The position numbers and the translations under genes were made by a program. A DNA stretch of 41,393 nucleotides from an uncultured Bacilli bacterium (lineage in GTDB: Bacteria; Bacillota_I; Bacilli_A; RFN20; CAG-826), in contig CALVYH010000008.1 of NCBI GenBank assembly GCA_944372115.1, forward strand, positions 1 through 41,393, given 5' to 3'. Position 1 is the first letter of the stretch, and each line of letters starts with the position of its first letter. Of this stretch, positions 6,155 through 31,692 are shown in pieces. The notes under the pieces are model-generated. The model was not told the DNA's origin. It searched no databases and was given only the letters and a program-made list of their open reading frames with translations.

Positions 6155-7657
6155 ATGGCTATAAATAATTTAGTAAAAAGAATACAAGACATTATGAGAA
6201 ATGATGCTGGTGTCGATGGCGATGCACAAAGAATCAGTCAAATGACCTGGATGTTCTTTCTTAAAGTGTACGATTCAAAAGAAGAAGAGTGGGAAATGCT
6301 TGATGAAAACTACAAAAGCTTAATTCCTGATGAATTAAAATGGCGCAATTGGGCTGTAGACGATCATAGCAACAATGTCATTACTGGCGACACTCTACTT
6401 AATTTTATCAATAACACATTATTTCCTTTCTTTAAAGGAAGAGAGATAGAATTAAATTATAAAAAATATCGTCTTGAAATCAGTCAAAATACACCTTTAA
6501 AACAAAGGATTGTCCAATATGTCTTTGAAGATGCGTCTAATTATATGAAAGATGGTGTTCTATTAAGACAAGTAATAAATGTTATTAATGAAGTTGATTT
6601 TTCTGAATATAAAGAAAGACATGAATTTGGTAACATATATGAAACCATTTTAAAGAGCCTTCAAAGTGCAGGTAATGCAGGTGAATTCTATACTCCAAGA
6701 GCAGTTACTGACTTTATGGTTAAGATGATTAATCCAAAATTAGGCGAATCTGTAGCGGATTTTGCATGTGGAACAGGCGGTTTTTTGACATCGACTTTAA
6801 AGTATTTAGAGCCACAAAGAAAAAGCGAAGAGGATGTAGATAAATACAATAACACTGTATATGGAATTGAGAAAAAGCCTCTTCCTTATTTACTATGCAT
6901 AACCAACATGTTATTACATGACGTTGATGAACCTAAAATTTATCATATGAATTCATTAGAAAAGAATGTTAGAGATTATAAAGAAAATGATAAATTCGAC
7001 ATTATTTTAATGAATCCACCTTATGGCGGTTCTGAAAAAGATATTATTAAAAATAATTTTCCAGCCGAGTTGAGAAGTAGTGAAACTGCTGATTTATTTA
7101 TTGATGTTATCATGTATCGCTTAAAGAAAAACGGTCGCGCCGCAGTAATTATTCCTGATGGTTTTTTGTTTGGTGAAGATAATGCTAAAGTTGCAATTAA
7201 AACTAAGTTATTAAACGAATTTAATTTACACACAATAATTCGTATGCCACATAGTGTGTTTGCACCTTATACTTCAATTACCACTAATATTCTCTTTTTT
7301 GAAAATACTCATCCAACAGAAGAAACTTGGATTTATAGAATGGACATGCCAGAAGGATATAAAAACTTTTCAAAGACCAAACCAATTATGCTAGAGCATT
7401 TTAATCCTGTGATTGAATGGCGGATCAATAGAGAAGAGATTGTTATTGATACATTTCCTAAAGCCAAAAAATATACAAAAAAAGAATTAGAAGATAAACA
7501 TTATAATTTAGATTTATGTGGCTATCCTCATGAAGAAGATGAAATACTCGACCCACATGATTTAATAAAAGAATTCAGAGAGAAGAGAGCTGCATACAAT
7601 GCTGAAATGGAAGAAACACTGGATAAAATATTGGAGTTATTAGATGAAGACAATTAA
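6155..7657 (+). CDS. hsdM: Type I restriction-modification DNA methyltransferase subunit
   Basis: A 500-residue N6-adenine methyltransferase subunit. An N-terminal helical HsdM_N domain (about 1-140) precedes the N6_Mtase domain, with AdoMet motif I ADFACGTGGF (201-210) and catalytic motif IV NPPY (287-290). The motif GEFYTPR just before motif I is characteristic of HsdM. Length is normal and nothing is broken. The gene ends inside hsdS (14-bp overlap), implying translational coupling. With HsdS it forms the modification complex that protects host DNA. Confidence 0.96.
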   Translation: MAINNLVKRIQDIMRNDAGVDGDAQRISQMTWMFFLKVYDSKEEEWEMLDENYKSLIPDELKWRNWAVDDHSNNVITGDTLLNFINNTLFPFFKGREIELNYKKYRLEISQNTPLKQRIVQYVFEDASNYMKDGVLLRQVINVINEVDFSEYKERHEFGNIYETILKSLQSAGNAGEFYTPRAVTDFMVKMINPKLGESVADFACGTGGFLTSTLKYLEPQRKSEEDVDKYNNTVYGIEKKPLPYLLCITNMLLHDVDEPKIYHMNSLEKNVRDYKENDKFDIILMNPPYGGSEKDIIKNNFPAELRSSETADLFIDVIMYRLKKNGRAAVIIPDGFLFGEDNAKVAIKTKLLNEFNLHTIIRMPHSVFAPYTSITTNILFFENTHPTEETWIYRMDMPEGYKNFSKTKPIMLEHFNPVIEWRINREEIVIDTFPKAKKYTKKELEDKHYNLDLCGYPHEEDEILDPHDLIKEFREKRAAYNAEMEETLDKILELLDEDN

Positions 7658-9182
7658 AAATTTAACTGCCGACGAAATTAGAAAATCAATTCTTCAATTA
7701 GCAATTCAAGGTAAACTCGTAAAGCAAGATCCTAATGATGAGCCTGCCAGTGAGCTTGTCAAGAGGATTTATGAAGAAAAACAAAGACTAATCAAAGAAG
7801 GCAAAATTAAAAAAGACAAGAATGAATCTTATATTTATAAGGGCGACGATAATTGCTATTATGAGAAGATTGGGAAGGAAGTTAGAAATATAAATGATGA
7901 ACTTCCCTTTGCGATACCGGATAGTTGGACTTGGGTAAGACACAATTCAATTTTTGAAATTTTCGGAGGCTCTCAGCCGCCTAAAAGTAAATTCAGTAAA
8001 ATACCTAAAGATGGTTATATACGTCTTTATCAAATAAGAGATTATGGCCCAAATCCTGATCCAATCTATATACAAATAAAAGACGCACACAAAATAACAA
8101 AAAAAGGAGATATTTTGTTAGCAAGATATGGGGCTTCTGTAGGGAAAGTTTTTTGGGCAGATAATGGTGCTTACAATGTAGCTATGGCTAAAGTAGAAAA
8201 ACTATATGAGAGTAATTTTATCGATTTTAATTACATGTATGCTTTCTATAAAAGTCCTCTTTATCAATTACTTGTTAAAAATAATTCACGTAGTGCGCAA
8301 GCTGGTTTTAATAAAAATGATTTGAGCGAGTTATTATTACCAATCCCACCATTTGAAGAACAGAAAAGAATTGTAAAAAAAATACAAGGCTTTGAACCTT
8401 TAATTCAACAATATGAAAAACGCGAGAAATTACTTTCTAATTTAGAAACTTCATTTGAGGAAAAGCTAAAAGCATCAATTTTGCAGTACGCAATCGAGGG
8501 GAAACTCGTTAAACAAGACCCTAATGATGAACCAGCATCAGTTCTTCTTGAACGTATAAAAGCAGAGAAAGAAAAACTTATAAGTGAAGGTAAAGTTAAA
8601 CGAGATAAAAATGATTCTGCCATCTGGCAAAGTGACGATAAGAATTATTATCTAAACATTCCTAAGACATGGTCAGTAATACCATTAAAAAACATCTGTT
8701 CATTGATTACATGTGGTTATGCAAGTACTCCACAATATGAAAATAACGGAATACCTTTTATTTCTGCAAAAAATGTTAAACCATATAGATTTATTTTCAA
8801 AAATTTTAATTATATTTCTAAAGAATTATTTAATAAGATTCATAAAAATTATGTACCAGAATATGGAGATATTCTTCTTACACGTGTTGGTGCTGGAATT
8901 GGTGAGGCATGTATTATTGATATTAAGCAAGAATTTGGCATATATGTTAGCCTTACTTTAATTAAACTAATTGCCAAAGAAACTAATGAATATTTATTGT
9001 TAATACTACAATCCCCATACGGAAAAACTTTATCTAAATCAAATACATATGGAACTGATGCTTCTCAAGGTAATTTGAATGTAGATAAAGTTCGTAAATT
9101 TATTATTCCATTACCTCCTTTAAGTGAACAAACTAGAATAGTTAATAAGGTAAAATCTCTTTTTGAATTATTTTCTTCTTAA
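7644..9182 (+). CDS. hsdS: Type I specificity subunit, expressed copy
   Basis: A 512-residue target-recognition subunit. Two target recognition domains (about 80-235 and 340-510) are each preceded by a near-identical conserved segment containing GKLVKQDPNDEPAS, at about residues 22 and 284. The start overlaps hsdM and the ATG lies inside its last codons. Just upstream of each recognition domain is a sequence repeated in inverted orientation in the silent cassettes (7849-7870 and 8632-8651), so both halves can be exchanged by recombination. It is the only complete, start-bearing hsdS of the locus and so sets the current methylation specificity. Confidence 0.95.
   Translation: MKTIKNLTADEIRKSILQLAIQGKLVKQDPNDEPASELVKRIYEEKQRLIKEGKIKKDKNESYIYKGDDNCYYEKIGKEVRNINDELPFAIPDSWTWVRHNSIFEIFGGSQPPKSKFSKIPKDGYIRLYQIRDYGPNPDPIYIQIKDAHKITKKGDILLARYGASVGKVFWADNGAYNVAMAKVEKLYESNFIDFNYMYAFYKSPLYQLLVKNNSRSAQAGFNKNDLSELLLPIPPFEEQKRIVKKIQGFEPLIQQYEKREKLLSNLETSFEEKLKASILQYAIEGKLVKQDPNDEPASVLLERIKAEKEKLISEGKVKRDKNDSAIWQSDDKNYYLNIPKTWSVIPLKNICSLITCGYASTPQYENNGIPFISAKNVKPYRFIFKNFNYISKELFNKIHKNYVPEYGDILLTRVGAGIGEACIIDIKQEFGIYVSLTLIKLIAKETNEYLLLILQSPYGKTLSKSNTYGTDASQGNLNVDKVRKFIIPLPPLSEQTRIVNKVKSLFELFSS
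7849..7870 (+). repeat. hsdS inversion repeat 1, expressed side
   Basis: A 22-bp sequence just before the first recognition domain is perfectly repeated in inverted orientation at 11044-11065, with about 80% identity continuing into the domain boundary. It shares the core TATTATGAGAAGA with repeat 2, suggesting one recombinase recognises both. Confidence 0.8.
8632..8651 (+). repeat. hsdS inversion repeat 2, expressed side
   Basis: GTGACGATAAGAATTATTAT lies directly before the second recognition domain and is perfectly repeated in inverted orientation at 10218-10237. Inversion here would swap only the second recognition domain. Confidence 0.75.
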
Positions 9183-9183
9183 T

Positions 9184-9727
9184 AGAATTATTATGAGAAC
9201 TTACCTAATGGGTGGTGTTTAGCTTCTCTTGGCTTATTTGGTTTTTATAAAAAAGTCCTTTTGGTAGTTCGCTTACTAAATCAATGTTTGTTGATGAAAA
9301 GAAGCCAAATAGGGTTAAAGTATATGAGCAAAAGAATGCAATACAACATAATTATCAATTAGGAAATTATTATATTTCCAAAAGCAAATATGAAGAAATG
9401 AGAGGCTTTAGTGTATTTTCGGGCGACATTATTGTTTCATGCGCAGGAACCATTGGTGAAATATATCAACTCCCTATTGAAGCACCTATCGGAATAATTA
9501 ATCAAGCATTAATGAAAATAACCTTGTTTTATAATCATATAGCACCTTATTACATTATTTTACTTAAAGACAAGTTATATGAATTATCAAAAAGCGCAAA
9601 AGGAACGGCAATTAAAAATATTCCATCGTTTGATAAATTGAAACCAGCAAAAGTTTTACTACCACCCGAGAATGAACAAATTCGAATACTCAATCAATTA
9701 AAGAAAATATTTGATTTACTTTTATAA
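9184..9727 (+). pseudogene. Silent hsdS 3'-half cassette, frameshifted
   Basis: Starting with NYYENLPNGWCLASLG, the sequence encodes a third second-position recognition domain but has no start codon or ribosome site. Near 9255, after an A6 run, the frame shifts: the expected KKGPFGSSLTKSM is recovered only if one G is added, after which the frame is open to 9727. The direct repeat AGAATTATTATGAGAA at its left edge (9184-9199) matches the recombination region of the inverted cassette (10213-10228). It begins immediately after the hsdS stop and its 3' end overlaps the convergent inverted cassette by 38 bp. As written it would give a truncated specificity subunit if recombined into place. Confidence 0.85.
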
Positions 9728-11063
9728 CTATTTTCTTTTGCTCATTTAAAGGAGGAATGGGTAGGTATATCTTATTAAGCCTATCATTTGACATATGGAC
9801 GATGATATCTCCAGTTGATAACTGTTGCATACAGCATCTCCCATAAGGGGAATTAATAGCATATACAAGATATAGCGGATTCATATTATGGTTTGATAAA
9901 CAAGTCATATCTCCACCATAAGCTATTTGATCCTTTCCTAAATAAGCTAGTGCCATTGAAATGTCTTTCTTATTTTCACCCGTTAAAGTCATAAGAATGT
10001 CATTTTCATTTGCTTTATAGGCGTTTCTATATATTTCTAATGTGGTATGAGAAATTGCAGAAGAGAATGCAATTTTGTAAGTTGTATACAATTCACCATA
10101 TCTAATACATGGATAACCATTTTCCGCTATATCGGTACGTTTTATTCCGGAACCACGAGTGAGTGTTCCTAGTTGTCCTATTTTTGCTAATGACCAACCT
10201 GTAGGAATATTCTTCTCATAATAATTCTTATCGTCACCAAGAGTTATCTGAGAATCGCTCTTGTCCAGCTTGATTTTCCCTTCGTTAATAAGACGTTCTT
10301 TCTCCAATTTAATTCTTTCAAGAAGTTTAGAAGCTGGTTCATCATTTGGGTCTTGCTTAACAAGCTTACCCTCTATTGCATATTGGAGAATAGAAGCCTT
10401 TAACTTTTCTTCAAGTGACAACTCTAAATTAGTTAGTTTATTTTCGGCATTTTTATAATCCTCTAATAGAGGTTCGGCTTGATTTATTTTATTTAATATT
10501 CTTCTAGCTTCTCTTTCAGGTGGAATTGGAAAATATAGGTTAGCAAAACGTTCTTTGCTCAAATTATAAAAAGCTTGCCCCGATTTTTTAGTAATACCAT
10601 TCATAAGGGATTGAAATAAAGGGCTTGATACGAAATACATAATTATTTCTGAAATAAACGAAAGATTTAAAAACGGTCTAAAAATAAATACAAAGCCACC
10701 AGCTGTAACATTATTTAATCTCTGATTAACAATACATATTTTCCCAATATTCTCTAAGCTAGTAACTGATGGAGTTAGTAAATCATTAAGTTCAAGCATG
10801 ATATTTTCTGAAACTAGCTCTTCAGGAATGTAAAGATCGTTGTCTTTCAAAAAGAGATTAAATGGTTCGATATTTCCTCCTCTTAAAACTCTTATGTAAT
10901 TTTGTTTTTGAGTTAATATTGCTTGTTCTTTCTTAAATGAAGCACCAGTCTGTATATTTATGATATCTTTCAGCCTTATCCATGTCCAATTATCAGGTAT
11001 GTCAAAAGGAAGTTCATCAGTTATATTTTTAACTTCCTTGCCGATCTTCTCATAATAGCAATT
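9690..11063 (-). pseudogene. Silent inverted hsdS cassette with two recognition domains, no start
   Basis: The minus strand is open from 11063 to 9690 and encodes a nearly complete HsdS: NCYYEKIGKEV, first recognition domain, central conserved segment with GKLVKQDPNDEPAS, DDKNYYEK and a second recognition domain. It lacks the N-terminal conserved segment and any start signal; homology to the expressed gene ends exactly at the 22-bp inverted repeat 11044-11065 versus 7849-7870. It is storage for alternative halves, activated by inversion, rather than decay: no internal lesion is seen. A TTG codon at 10850 could mimic a start but is inside the first recognition domain. Confidence 0.88.
10213..10237 (-). 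repeat. hsdS inversion repeat 2, silent side
   Basis: The partner of 8632-8651 (20 bp, 10218-10237) also overlaps a 16-bp match to 9184-9199 (10213-10228), so it can pair with both forward second-position cassettes. Confidence 0.75.
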
Positions 11064-11065
11064 AT
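11044..11065 (-). repeat. hsdS inversion repeat 1, silent side
   Basis: Perfect inverted partner of 7849-7870. Inversion between the two would swap both recognition domains of the expressed gene. Confidence 0.8.
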
Positions 11066-11091
11066 AAAAAGTAAAAGGGCAAACTAAATAT

Positions 11092-11101
11092 GCTCACCCA
11101 T
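11092..11101 (+). repeat. Inverted repeat flanking the recombinase gene, left arm
   Basis: GCTCACCCAT lies 17 bp before the recombinase start and its reverse complement ATGGGTGAGC begins 12 bp after the stop (11934-11943). It could be a recombination site, a short-element end, or chance. Confidence 0.4.
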
Positions 11102-11118
11102 GAAAGGAGATATTAAAC

Positions 11119-11922
11119 ATGGATGATTTTAAATCATATTTAGTTAGCCTGAATTTAGCGGTTAACACAATAAATGCTTATTTGATAGCAGTGAAGAATT
11201 ATTTTCTTTATTTTAACGAAATTACTAAAACTAATTTGCTAGCTTGGAAATCGGAACTTATAGAGAAGTTTAAAGCAAAAACAGTTAATCTAAAGATTCA
11301 AGCTATTAATAATTATTTGGTTTTCATCGGTAAAGAAAATCTAAAAATTAAATCAGCAAAAGTACAACAACGATTATTTTTAGAGAATGTTATTAGTGAT
11401 TCTGATTATCAATTCTTAAAGAAGAAGTTGAAAAAAGAAAAGAATAAGCAGCGGTATTTTATTGTTAGATTTTTAGCAGCTACGGGAGCAAGAATAAGTG
11501 AACTTATTAAAATTAAAGTCGAGCACGTAATAAAAGGATATATCGATATTTATACCAAAGGAGGTAAGATACGAAGGATCTATATCCCTAAAGCGTTAAG
11601 AGTTGAAGCTGAAGTTCGGATTAGAAAGGATTTAAAGTTAGATAGCGGATATATTTTCGTTAATCGATATGGTGAAAGAATAACAAGCAGAGGTATATCT
11701 CAACAATTGAAGAAATATGCTATTAAGTTTGGGATAGATTCTAATGTTGTTTATCCTCATTCTTTTAGGCATCGTTTTGCAAAAAATTTTCTTGAGAAAT
11801 ACAATGACATAGCTTTATTAGCTGATTTAATGGGACATGAATCAATTGAAACTACCAGAATTTATTTAAGGAAAACTGCAAATGAACAACGAGAAATTGT
11901 TGATAATGTAGTAACCTGGTAA
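11119..11922 (+). CDS. Tyrosine recombinase of the hsdS inversion locus
   Basis: A 267-residue XerC/XerD-like recombinase with SAM-like N-terminal domain (about 1-85) and catalytic domain: Arg in ATGARISELIKI, Lys in TKGGKIRR, HSFRHRF (HxxR), LMGHESIETT (His) and Tyr in RIYLRKT. AAAGGAGATATT precedes the ATG. Its short, single-domain-arm-less form and its position next to shuffled hsdS cassettes match the recombinases that drive hsdS inversion in phase-variable type I systems; it is distinct from the 418-residue integrase. It is read away from the silent cassettes and flanked by a 10-bp inverted repeat (11092-11101, 11934-11943). Confidence 0.9.
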   Translation: MDDFKSYLVSLNLAVNTINAYLIAVKNYFLYFNEITKTNLLAWKSELIEKFKAKTVNLKIQAINNYLVFIGKENLKIKSAKVQQRLFLENVISDSDYQFLKKKLKKEKNKQRYFIVRFLAATGARISELIKIKVEHVIKGYIDIYTKGGKIRRIYIPKALRVEAEVRIRKDLKLDSGYIFVNRYGERITSRGISQQLKKYAIKFGIDSNVVYPHSFRHRFAKNFLEKYNDIALLADLMGHESIETTRIYLRKTANEQREIVDNVVTW

Positions 11923-20729: not shown

Positions 20730-20849
20730 AAGTTTATATTTTATCTACCTTTATTAATAAAATAATAATAAAAAATACGATAATTATCAATATAAATATC
20801 TACTATATAAATAAAAAATAATAGTATATTAATCTTTTATTTTGATGTT

Positions 20850-20855
20850 TATAAT
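20850..20855 (+). promoter_or_regulatory. -10 element of the large structured RNA
   Basis: TATAAT, positioned so that transcription would begin near 20862, at the first paired bases of the RNA. The -35 match is weak. It lies in the region shared with the divergent WYL regulator. Confidence 0.6.
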
Positions 20856-20861
20856 ATCGTT

Positions 20862-21441
20862 GTAACCTGATGAAGTTGGTCTTACAGACCGTCAGGATTC
20901 TTAGAACGTGAGTGGTTTAATAAGGATACTTATTAAATAGCAAATACCTTATATAGAGATATATAAGGAAGGTTTTTGGATTAGCCTTGTTCTAAGAAGT
21001 GCTCTTATTAAATTCTCTAGTTAAGGCAATGAGCGATCCGGATCTATAAGTGGCTATTATCGCTAGCTAAGCCCGCCCTCCTGCAAGTAGTGTGAGAGAC
21101 TACCAAGCAAGTGGCAAATTCAATAAAGATCTCTGAGGTGGCGTTTAAGTAATTAAACTATAAGGATTGCAAACAAATGGTGCGAGTAGCTAAATCCGAC
21201 TCAGCTGCGAAGGGAAAACGAATATATAGTTTTTGTGAAACTACATCCGACGTTTAGTGAAAGTTGCTAGGAAATCTAGCCTAATCTATCAATCTTCTAA
21301 TTTAGAAGATGGAGTTAGTAGTGTATAAGTCGCTCTTATACGCTCGGGCTAACTTCGATTAGTGGCCGAATAAACAAAATTTAATTAAGAGTAAGGCGAA
21401 GGCCTACAAAATAATTTATCCCTACACTAAAGTGTAGGGAT
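20862..21441 (+). ncRNA. Large ornate structured RNA, ROOL-like candidate
   Basis: About 580 nt with no ORF and visibly higher GC than its surroundings. Perfect local helices abound: TTCTTAGAAC (20898-20907) with GTTCTAAGAA (20989-20998); TTTAATAAG-GATA-CTTATTAAA (20916-20937); CCTTATATA-GAGA-TATATAAGG (20947-20968, GNRA loop); GTTTAA-GTAA-TTAAAC; GTATAAG/CTTATAC; GCTAG/CTAGC; and a final 10-bp hairpin at 21418-21441. No RNase P, tmRNA or SRP signatures are seen. Length and multi-helix build fit the ROOL family (about 580 nt, gut and rumen Firmicutes, mobile elements), whose members assemble into RNA cages; OLE (about 610 nt) and GOLLD are alternatives. The family name is my inference; that it is a structured RNA is nearly certain. 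Confidence 0.85.
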
Positions 21442-22335: not shown

Positions 22336-22473
22336 ATGCCAAAGGAATATGTAATTAGCGATTTACATTTTAATCATAAAAATATTCTAGATTACGAAAG
22401 AAATGAATTTAATGATATTAACGATAAATTTTTTCTAATCTTACTAATTAATGAAGATATTTTTTCTTTTTAA
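22336..22473 (+). pseudogene. N-terminal fragment of a phosphoesterase
   Basis: A strong AAAGGAG precedes an ATG that opens 45 codons beginning MPKEYVISDLHFNHKNILDY. ISDLHFNHKNI is the first metal-binding motif of a calcineurin-like phosphoesterase family different from the copies at 17.1 and 28.6 kb. The sequence then diverges and stops; the remaining motifs (GNHE, HGH) are absent. It is a truncated remnant. Confidence 0.65.
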
Positions 22474-29952: not shown

Positions 29953-31692
29953 ATGGATAAAATTAATTATGGAGAATACATTAAAAAAAGAAGAGTTGAG
30001 TTAAATCTTTCTCAATCAGATTTAGCTAATGTTTTATCTTGTTCATATCAAGCTATTTCTAAATATGAAAATAATAGTGTTAAAGTAGATATTTCGTTAA
30101 TCTCTAAACTTGCTAAAGTATTAAAAGTCGATTTAGATTCTTTTTTACTTAAAAAATATGAAAAAAATAATGATTATTGTGATTATTTAGAATTTGACTA
30201 TACTAAATTTTTAAACAAATTAAATTATTTAAGAGAAAAAAGATGTATTACCCAAAAAGAATTAGCAAAACAAGTTAATATTTCTTCTTCTAGAATTTCT
30301 AAATTAGAAAAAGGTAACGCTAATTTAAAGGCTGAAGAATTTTTAGCATTTGCAAAGTATTTTAATTGTTCATATTCTTCTCTTTATTTTGGAATGAGCG
30401 AAGAAGAATTAGAAAAAAATATAGTAGAAAAAGAGAATTTACTTATTGAAAATAAAAGAATTCCTTTTAAAGAAAGAATTAAAAAACCATCTATTTATAT
30501 TCCTTTATCAATTGCTTTAGTTATTGCTTTAGCATTAATTATCACTATTCCTTTATCATTATTTAATAACAATTCTTTCTCCTCTTATAATGATGATTTT
30601 ATTTTTACAAGTGATGAAAAAGGATTAATTATTACTGATTATAAAGGAGAAAATAATACTTCAATTACTATTCCTTCATCTATAAATAATGAAAAAGTAT
30701 ATAAAATTGCTTCTAAAGCTTTTAATAGTGAAGATTTAGTTAAAGAAATTTATATTAGTGAAGGAATAGAAGAAATTGAAAGCAATGCTTTCAATTTTCT
30801 ATCTTCTTTAAAAGAAGTTTATCTTCCTTCTACTTTAAAAATATTAGAAGATAATGCTTTTAATATTTCTTATTCTTTATCAAATATTTATTTAAATAAT
30901 GGTAGTAATTATTTTTCTTTAGATGAAGATGGTAATTTATATTCATTTGATAAAAAAGAATTATATCGAGTTTTACCTAAAAATAATTATGTTGATTTTA
31001 ATATTTTAGAAGGCGTTGAAATAATTAAAGGAGGGGCATTTGATTCGAATTATACTTTAACAAATGTTATTTTTCCTTCTTCTTTAAAAACTATTAATTC
31101 ATCTGCATTTAATGATTGCTATTTAATAAATGAACTTAATTTTAATGAAGGATTAGAAACTTTAAGTGTTAATGCTTTTACGGGATTAAATAAATCATTA
31201 AAAATAATTAATTTACCATCAACTTTAAAAAATATGAACGGTAATCCTTTTTATAACTATCCTCATTTAAAAGAGATTAATATTAGTAGTGAAAATAAAT
31301 ATTTCACTACTATTGATAATATATTGTATTCAAAAGATTTATCTAGTATTTATACCTTCCCTTCTTTATATAAAGAAAATAGTTTTATTCTTCCTGAGGG
31401 AGTTAAAAATATCGAAATATTTGCTTTTAATAATTTAATTAATTTAGAATCATTAGTTTTACCTTCGACTATTGAACTTGCTAAAGATAGAGGTATTTGT
31501 TATAACGAATCTTTAGAATCTATTTTAATTAAAAAAGGTGCGAAAAACTTTAAATATAGAAGTATTTATGGGTGCAAAAATAGCGATGTTTATTTAGAAT
31601 ATCCTTCTTTACCTTCATCTTTTGATAAAGAATTTACTGATAGTGAAATATTTTTTGAAGGAGAATGGGATAATAAAGAAAATATTGAATAA
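29953..31692 (+). CDS. Membrane-anchored double-XRE regulator with leucine-rich-repeat ectodomain
   Basis: A 579-residue protein with three parts. Two XRE helix-turn-helix domains lie in the cytoplasm (about 8-62, RRVELNLSQSDLANVLSCSY; and 89-142, REKRCITQKELAKQVNISSS). One hydrophobic helix (181-204) crosses the membrane. The outside part (about 225-560) has BspA/LRR_5-type repeats such as EIESNAFNFLSSLKEVYLPS and TINSSAFNDCYLINELNF. The build suggests a one-component receptor that binds DNA inside and a surface or peptide ligand outside. No Shine-Dalgarno site precedes the ATG. It is followed 27 bp later by the next gene. Confidence 0.85.
   Translation: MDKINYGEYIKKRRVELNLSQSDLANVLSCSYQAISKYENNSVKVDISLISKLAKVLKVDLDSFLLKKYEKNNDYCDYLEFDYTKFLNKLNYLREKRCITQKELAKQVNISSSRISKLEKGNANLKAEEFLAFAKYFNCSYSSLYFGMSEEELEKNIVEKENLLIENKRIPFKERIKKPSIYIPLSIALVIALALIITIPLSLFNNNSFSSYNDDFIFTSDEKGLIITDYKGENNTSITIPSSINNEKVYKIASKAFNSEDLVKEIYISEGIEEIESNAFNFLSSLKEVYLPSTLKILEDNAFNISYSLSNIYLNNGSNYFSLDEDGNLYSFDKKELYRVLPKNNYVDFNILEGVEIIKGGAFDSNYTLTNVIFPSSLKTINSSAFNDCYLINELNFNEGLETLSVNAFTGLNKSLKIINLPSTLKNMNGNPFYNYPHLKEINISSENKYFTTIDNILYSKDLSSIYTFPSLYKENSFILPEGVKNIEIFAFNNLINLESLVLPSTIELAKDRGICYNESLESILIKKGAKNFKYRSIYGCKNSDVYLEYPSLPSSFDKEFTDSEIFFEGEWDNKENIE

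Follow-up and report, generated by a model that had tools for sequence, protein, structure and literature searches.

The window analysed here, a 41,393-nt stretch of DNA from an uncultured Bacilli bacterium (contig CALVYH010000008.1), carries a non-coding RNA gene of the ROOL family and, reading away from it, the gene of a putative regulator, P0001. A cmscan search matches positions 20842-21425 of the + strand to Rfam ROOL (RF03087) over the full model (1-574/574) with 202.6 bits and an E-value of 2e-44, a score twice the family cut-off of 99.1 bits. This is the sole Rfam match within the 41 kb, where no match to OLE, GOLLD or group II introns was found, and the sole ROOL copy within the 1.25-Mb genome. 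A first-pass annotation made from the letters had described a structured RNA of probable ROOL class at 20862-21441, and both the structure and the class are borne out. No open reading frame longer than 33 aa overlaps that interval, G+C content at 20842-21425 is 37.2% vs 25.1% for the window (a value reached by 0.07% of 584-nt windows), and the + strand has a fold energy of -169 kcal/mol, where dinucleotide shuffles give -135.5 +/- 6.6 kcal/mol (z -5.05; 0/100 shuffles as low). Because the minus strand of the region also folds (z -5.3), the strand is set by the covariance match and not by fold energy alone. Judged by its sequence, 20842-21425(+) is a full-length ROOL RNA.

Orthologues of this RNA in four congeners are 84-97% identical over ~549 nt, with changes concentrated in the middle stretch and at both ends of the five-species alignment. 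RNAalifold predicts 167 pairs from this alignment, counted on its own structure and not on the published ROOL structure, of which 16 show a change on both sides and most are invariant. Between the window and genome G002, the ROOL DNA is 86% identical, compared with 51% and 36% for the proteins beside it, so that the RNA seems tightly constrained. It resembles the described ROOL RNAs (the L. salivarius long non-coding RNA, env-120) in its full-length covariance match, its length of ~580 nt, its variable middle region, and the terminators that follow the RNA in relatives. Assembly into hollow multimers has been demonstrated for other ROOLs (PMC12286853, PMC12191101).

The interval first given to the RNA starts near a likely transcription start, and its end takes in a separate, perfect hairpin (21418-21441, +). 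This hairpin lacks a U run on the + strand and is probably a weak terminator or a processing site; at the corresponding position, the orthologous loci of G002 and G029 have canonical terminators. The -10 box earlier called clear corresponds to TATAAT at 20850-20855 (+), a probable ROOL -10 box that is nearly unchanged in four divergent orthologous loci; no -35 match was found in the + strand promoter.

Opposite ROOL, with its gene start 120 nt from this box, lies P0001 (19743..20729, minus strand; 328 aa), which gives only a sub-threshold WYL match in Pfam. An AlphaFold model built from 28 homologues (pLDDT 91.9), which replaced a poor five-sequence model (pLDDT 55), contains two ribbon-helix-helix (RHH) units (strand 4-9 with helices 11-23 and 35-64; strand 94-99 with helices 102-112 and 122-134), a WYL barrel (strands within 161-219) and a C-terminal domain (247-327). 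Its top match in the PDB is the Cas13d accessory protein WYL1 (6oaw), with a Z-score of 22.6 over 318/328 residues, followed by matches at Z ~11 that involve mainly the WYL part. A profile search with P0001 found WYL1 as the sole protein (E 8e-30). With model and profile in agreement, the divergent RHH-WYL regulator announced beside the RNA holds, and P0001 is, as modelled, a WYL1 homologue with tandem RHH, WYL and C-terminal domains.

The likeness to WYL1 of type VI-D CRISPR-Cas13d thus covers the tandem RHH, the WYL barrel and the C-terminal domain, whereas the genetic partner of P0001 is ROOL; no scanned window protein matched Cas13d, and no Cas13d search of the genome was made. WYL1 binds single-stranded RNA, among others via Arg131 and Arg133 of its second RHH unit (RspWYL1; PMC6547453). 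These arginines are not kept in P0001, where the alignment places Glu95 and Thr97, a replacement that points to DNA rather than RNA binding by P0001, without being proof of it. The defence and damage regulators BrxR, CapW, DriD and PafBC share with P0001 a WYL domain and a C-terminal part (Z 8.6-11.4), and inverted repeats lie upstream here as they do for BrxR (PMC9122601). They differ in that the matches fall mainly in the WYL part, whereas P0001 has an N-terminal tandem RHH and a non-coding RNA gene as its partner.

The pairing of ROOL and regulator is conserved in the genus. ROOL was found by DNA search in 5/26 genomes, and a close P0001 orthologue (E <1e-150) is present in exactly the same five, an overlap that random assignment would produce once in 65,780, in a calculation that ignores kinship, and two of the five are closely related. 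The census comprised these 26 genomes, 11 congeners searched by model, as well as 10 genomes from two sister genera; the genomes compared are draft assemblies, several from uncultured bacteria. Four of the five ROOL genomes have the divergent, adjacent layout, and in the fifth, G002, the regulator lies 2.5 kb downstream of ROOL on the same strand.

The same arrangement recurs well outside the genus. The RHH-WYL family occurs in 39/279 genomes of the order, and among 20 further regulator loci that were scanned, six have ROOL directly divergent (genomes G164, G085, G256, G253, G251 and G039; loci L071, L075, L063, L070, L074 and L059), G039 belonging to a different family from the window's genus. 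ROOL is thus divergent from and adjacent to a family member in 10 genomes of the order, the eleventh being the one linked at 2.5 kb, and these links span five genera, two families and three regulator clades. No ROOL was seen at 16 weaker or second regulator loci (L078-L093), nor in the 10 sister-genera genomes, which lack the regulator; this last search had no positive of its own, and the same search detected ROOL among congeners. Mapping the ROOL label onto a tree of 28 regulators takes three changes, of which well-supported branches make two unavoidable. Shuffled labels cluster far less than the real ones, and each clade keeps mostly one kind of partner.

The two genes share a divergent promoter region (20730..20849) delimited from a four-species alignment. 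On the regulator side, a promoter match TTGATA-17-TATTAT lies at 20790-20762. Within the shared region, the conserved near-palindrome TACGATAATTATCA (20776..20789), kept in 4/4 divergent loci of the genus, is a candidate operator. TATCTAC at 20742..20748 (+), at the same position in 4/4 species, is a candidate operator half-site; its second copy at 20797..20803 (+) holds its position in 3/4 species and is short, AT-rich and weak alone. The intergenic region of the window's genus is marked by two TATCTAC and TACGATANTTATCA, those of G164 and G085 by two GGGTCA repeats. In one further clade, the dyad GTTCC-N7-GGAAC stands directly upstream of the regulator start in 4/4 loci (L063, L070, L074 and L059, the true start in L059 being probably upstream of the listed one), and it occurs six times in the 635 kb of all loci collected, those four included. 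Tested singly, intergenic regions gave no significant exact repeats apart from one 12-nt direct repeat, that of G039, and the dyad common to four loci is better evidence than such statistics.

The other partners of the regulator family bear on what the pair may do. At loci without ROOL, the divergent neighbour is an RtcB RNA ligase in five cases and a DUF2828/DUF7788 protein in five, of which Pfam identifies three and similarity the other two. In six cases it is an SCO0854-like protein, assigned through NCBIfam matches below cut-off at three loci and through similarity at the remainder. In G085, one regulator faces ROOL and another faces RtcB. DUF2828 presumably resembles Ro60/TROVE proteins. 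In Salmonella, an RNA-repair operon combines RtcB, a Ro60 homologue and small RNAs, and damaged tRNA switches it on via RtcR (PMC7790460). This RtcR-controlled rsr-yrl-rtcBA operon shares with our loci the logic of a nucleic-acid-sensing regulator associated with RtcB and non-coding RNA; it differs in that RtcR is an enhancer-binding protein with a CARF domain, whereas here RtcB and ROOL adjoin separate paralogous RHH-WYL proteins. Because family members face RtcB and DUF2828, and with the Salmonella operon as precedent, guilt by association would place ROOL in an RNA-damage response. Family members were also seen near an htpG-like gene in three genomes (L099, L088 and L090).

By homology, the locus makes a ROOL RNA. 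Since the divergent pairing is conserved, as are dyads, and the two genes share a promoter region, we consider it fairly likely that transcription of this RNA is controlled by the divergent WYL1-like RHH-WYL protein. ROOL would here be, we infer, a chromosomal gene under a nucleic-acid-sensing regulator, and the pair probably serves a response to RNA damage or conflict. In such a mechanism, the tandem RHH would sit on the shared promoter, and the WYL domain would serve as the sensor of a nucleic-acid fragment arising from RNA or DNA damage or from phage attack, as described for other WYL regulators. This sensing would switch ROOL on, and the RNA could then build up as cages that would enclose something or take it out of circulation; the simplest, if speculative, candidates are damaged or idle translation RNAs. 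A more tentative extension, which we offer as a possibility only, is that ROOL cages are an inducible chromosomal component of the RNA-damage response, in which WYL1-family paralogues sense RNA fragments and switch on RtcB, DUF2828 or ROOL, the latter providing an RNA-made compartment for damaged RNA.

Several observations weigh against control of ROOL by the regulator. In L. salivarius, ROOL is abundant with no induction known, and deleting it gave no clear phenotype (PMC5643018). The phage and clostridial ROOLs that we compared have no such regulator nearby, which means that ROOL can work without one, and the separated layout in G002 means that adjacency is not indispensable. The pairs outside the genus were reached from the regulator side and not by a whole-order ROOL search. 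Finally, WYL1 is a binder of single-stranded RNA (PMC6547453), so P0001 might itself act on RNA.

This last point leads to an alternative in which the RHH-WYL protein is an RNA-binding partner of ROOL, as WYL1 is for Cas13d target RNA, and binds ROOL, aids its folding or assembly, or loads the cargo of the cage, the divergent transcription being only gene order. The WYL barrel of P0001 does resemble Hfq/Sm in structural comparison, and ROOL and regulator strictly co-occur in the genus. However, an RNA binder specific to ROOL would not explain why family members face RtcB, DUF2828 and SCO0854-like genes divergently, the WYL1 arginines of the second RHH unit are not kept, and dyads lie in the shared promoter region. 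We therefore regard an RNA-binding partner as rather unlikely.

The genomic setting raises a second alternative, in which a mobile defence island or prophage remnant carries ROOL and regulator along as passengers, together by chance. As first described, the region is rich in defence genes: type I restriction-modification, GmrSD, Schlafen-AlbA and HipA/helix-turn-helix (HTH) genes and integrases surround ROOL in the window. The restriction, GmrSD, HipA and integrase genes around the pair would fit a passenger, as would the patchy distribution in the genus (5/26) and the ROOL 3' fragments in G028, which show loss or rearrangement. In distant genera, however, the layout is kept beside housekeeping-like genes (nusA-infB-rbfA-, ppa-, tldD- and htpG-like, named by sequence and not by profile), outside tRNA arrays, and across regulators only about 25-35% identical, which makes a chance association very doubtful. 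The G028 fragments, both 3'-terminal, lie elsewhere in that genome at L051:1566-1827 (90% identical), and L052:7237-7328 (85%), one beside DUF262/GmrSD-like genes and the other near a gene that resembles an integrase and is split over two frames; recombination or integration at the 3' end of ROOL may have left them behind.

A third proposal rests on the genes downstream of ROOL. P0002 (21511..22014, +; 167 aa), an orphan coiled-coil-like protein and lineage-limited neighbour of ROOL, had been called DIP1984-like. This identity is not supported: P0002 matches nothing in Pfam, NCBIfam or PDB sequences, relaxed E-values included. It had also been suggested that the RNA, the regulator and this gene form a unit of three, to be checked by co-occurrence. 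The regulator does track ROOL, in the same 5/26 genomes of the genus, and the pair recurs. The P0002-type gene does not: its homologues occur only in G033, at the same place, and in G002, 5 kb away, and it is absent from 8/11 ROOL loci. In G028, G029 and G085 (three species, two genera), the gene directly downstream of ROOL is AAA+/M41 protease-like and encodes ~410-440 aa, short for FtsH (L038:6382-7623, L039:11278-12507, L095:10493-11809). A hairpin separates ROOL from the next gene in G002, G028 and G029, and is a canonical terminator in G002 and G029. The two-gene pair is general and the three-gene unit is not. A three-part conflict system, with ROOL as antitoxin or scaffold for an exchangeable effector, would accommodate both the P0002 gene next to ROOL in two close species and the AAA+/M41 gene in three others, one of them from another genus, but is quite improbable given that the other loci have neither gene after ROOL and that the hairpin intervenes.

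Their surroundings also set these loci apart from those already described. The literature on ROOL emphasises phages and prophages, tRNA islands and a megaplasmid (PMC12286853, PMC5643018), with non-prophage regions also mentioned (PMC12191101), and the phage and most of the clostridial ROOLs that we compared lie among tRNAs, sometimes with a tmRNA. Here, in contrast, a divergent RHH-WYL regulator stands beside ROOL, and neither a tRNA array nor a tmRNA or phage structural gene was seen nearby. There is no tRNA in the window or in 8/10 other ROOL neighbourhoods, and in the remaining two (L039, L096) the tRNAs are at least 2 kb from ROOL. The usual phage, prophage or tRNA-island setting, which is a habit of ROOL and not a defining feature, is thus not encountered, and no near ROOL DNA was found in phage and plasmid collections; one pattern match in a phage was discarded as due to chance. 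ROOL therefore appears to have two settings, the phage/tRNA-array one already described and a chromosomal one paired with a regulator.

The new part is the regulator partner of ROOL. ROOL structures have been solved, and the papers covered report no function, regulator or protein partner. An open-access search found no paper naming both ROOL and WYL; most subscription literature was outside its scope, and an earlier mention is possible. In five genera, ROOL has a recurrent protein-coding neighbour with relatives that lie divergent from RNA-repair genes; this provides a lead to the control and purpose of ROOL, and the pairing extends the WYL1 family beyond Cas13d.

A few minor features were recorded along the way. 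Two ROOLs, on one viral contig and in one Clostridiaceae genome, lie near a tmRNA gene inside a tRNA array (L005:5381-6324, L012:3160-4522), and a Clostridia metagenome-assembled genome from sheep omasum carries a tandem ROOL pair with 120 nt between the copies (L017:1124-1760 and 1881-2419). Downstream of P0002, the window contains a truncated metallophosphoesterase gene (22337-22473), an intact homologue of which follows the P0002 gene in G033 (L037:9125-9733). The region 7644-11922 has the layout of an invertible hsdS cluster, with a tyrosine integrase and type I specificity genes in both orientations. Lastly, the gene at 29953-31692 encodes a single protein in which two N-terminal HTH domains are fused to BspA-type leucine-rich repeats.
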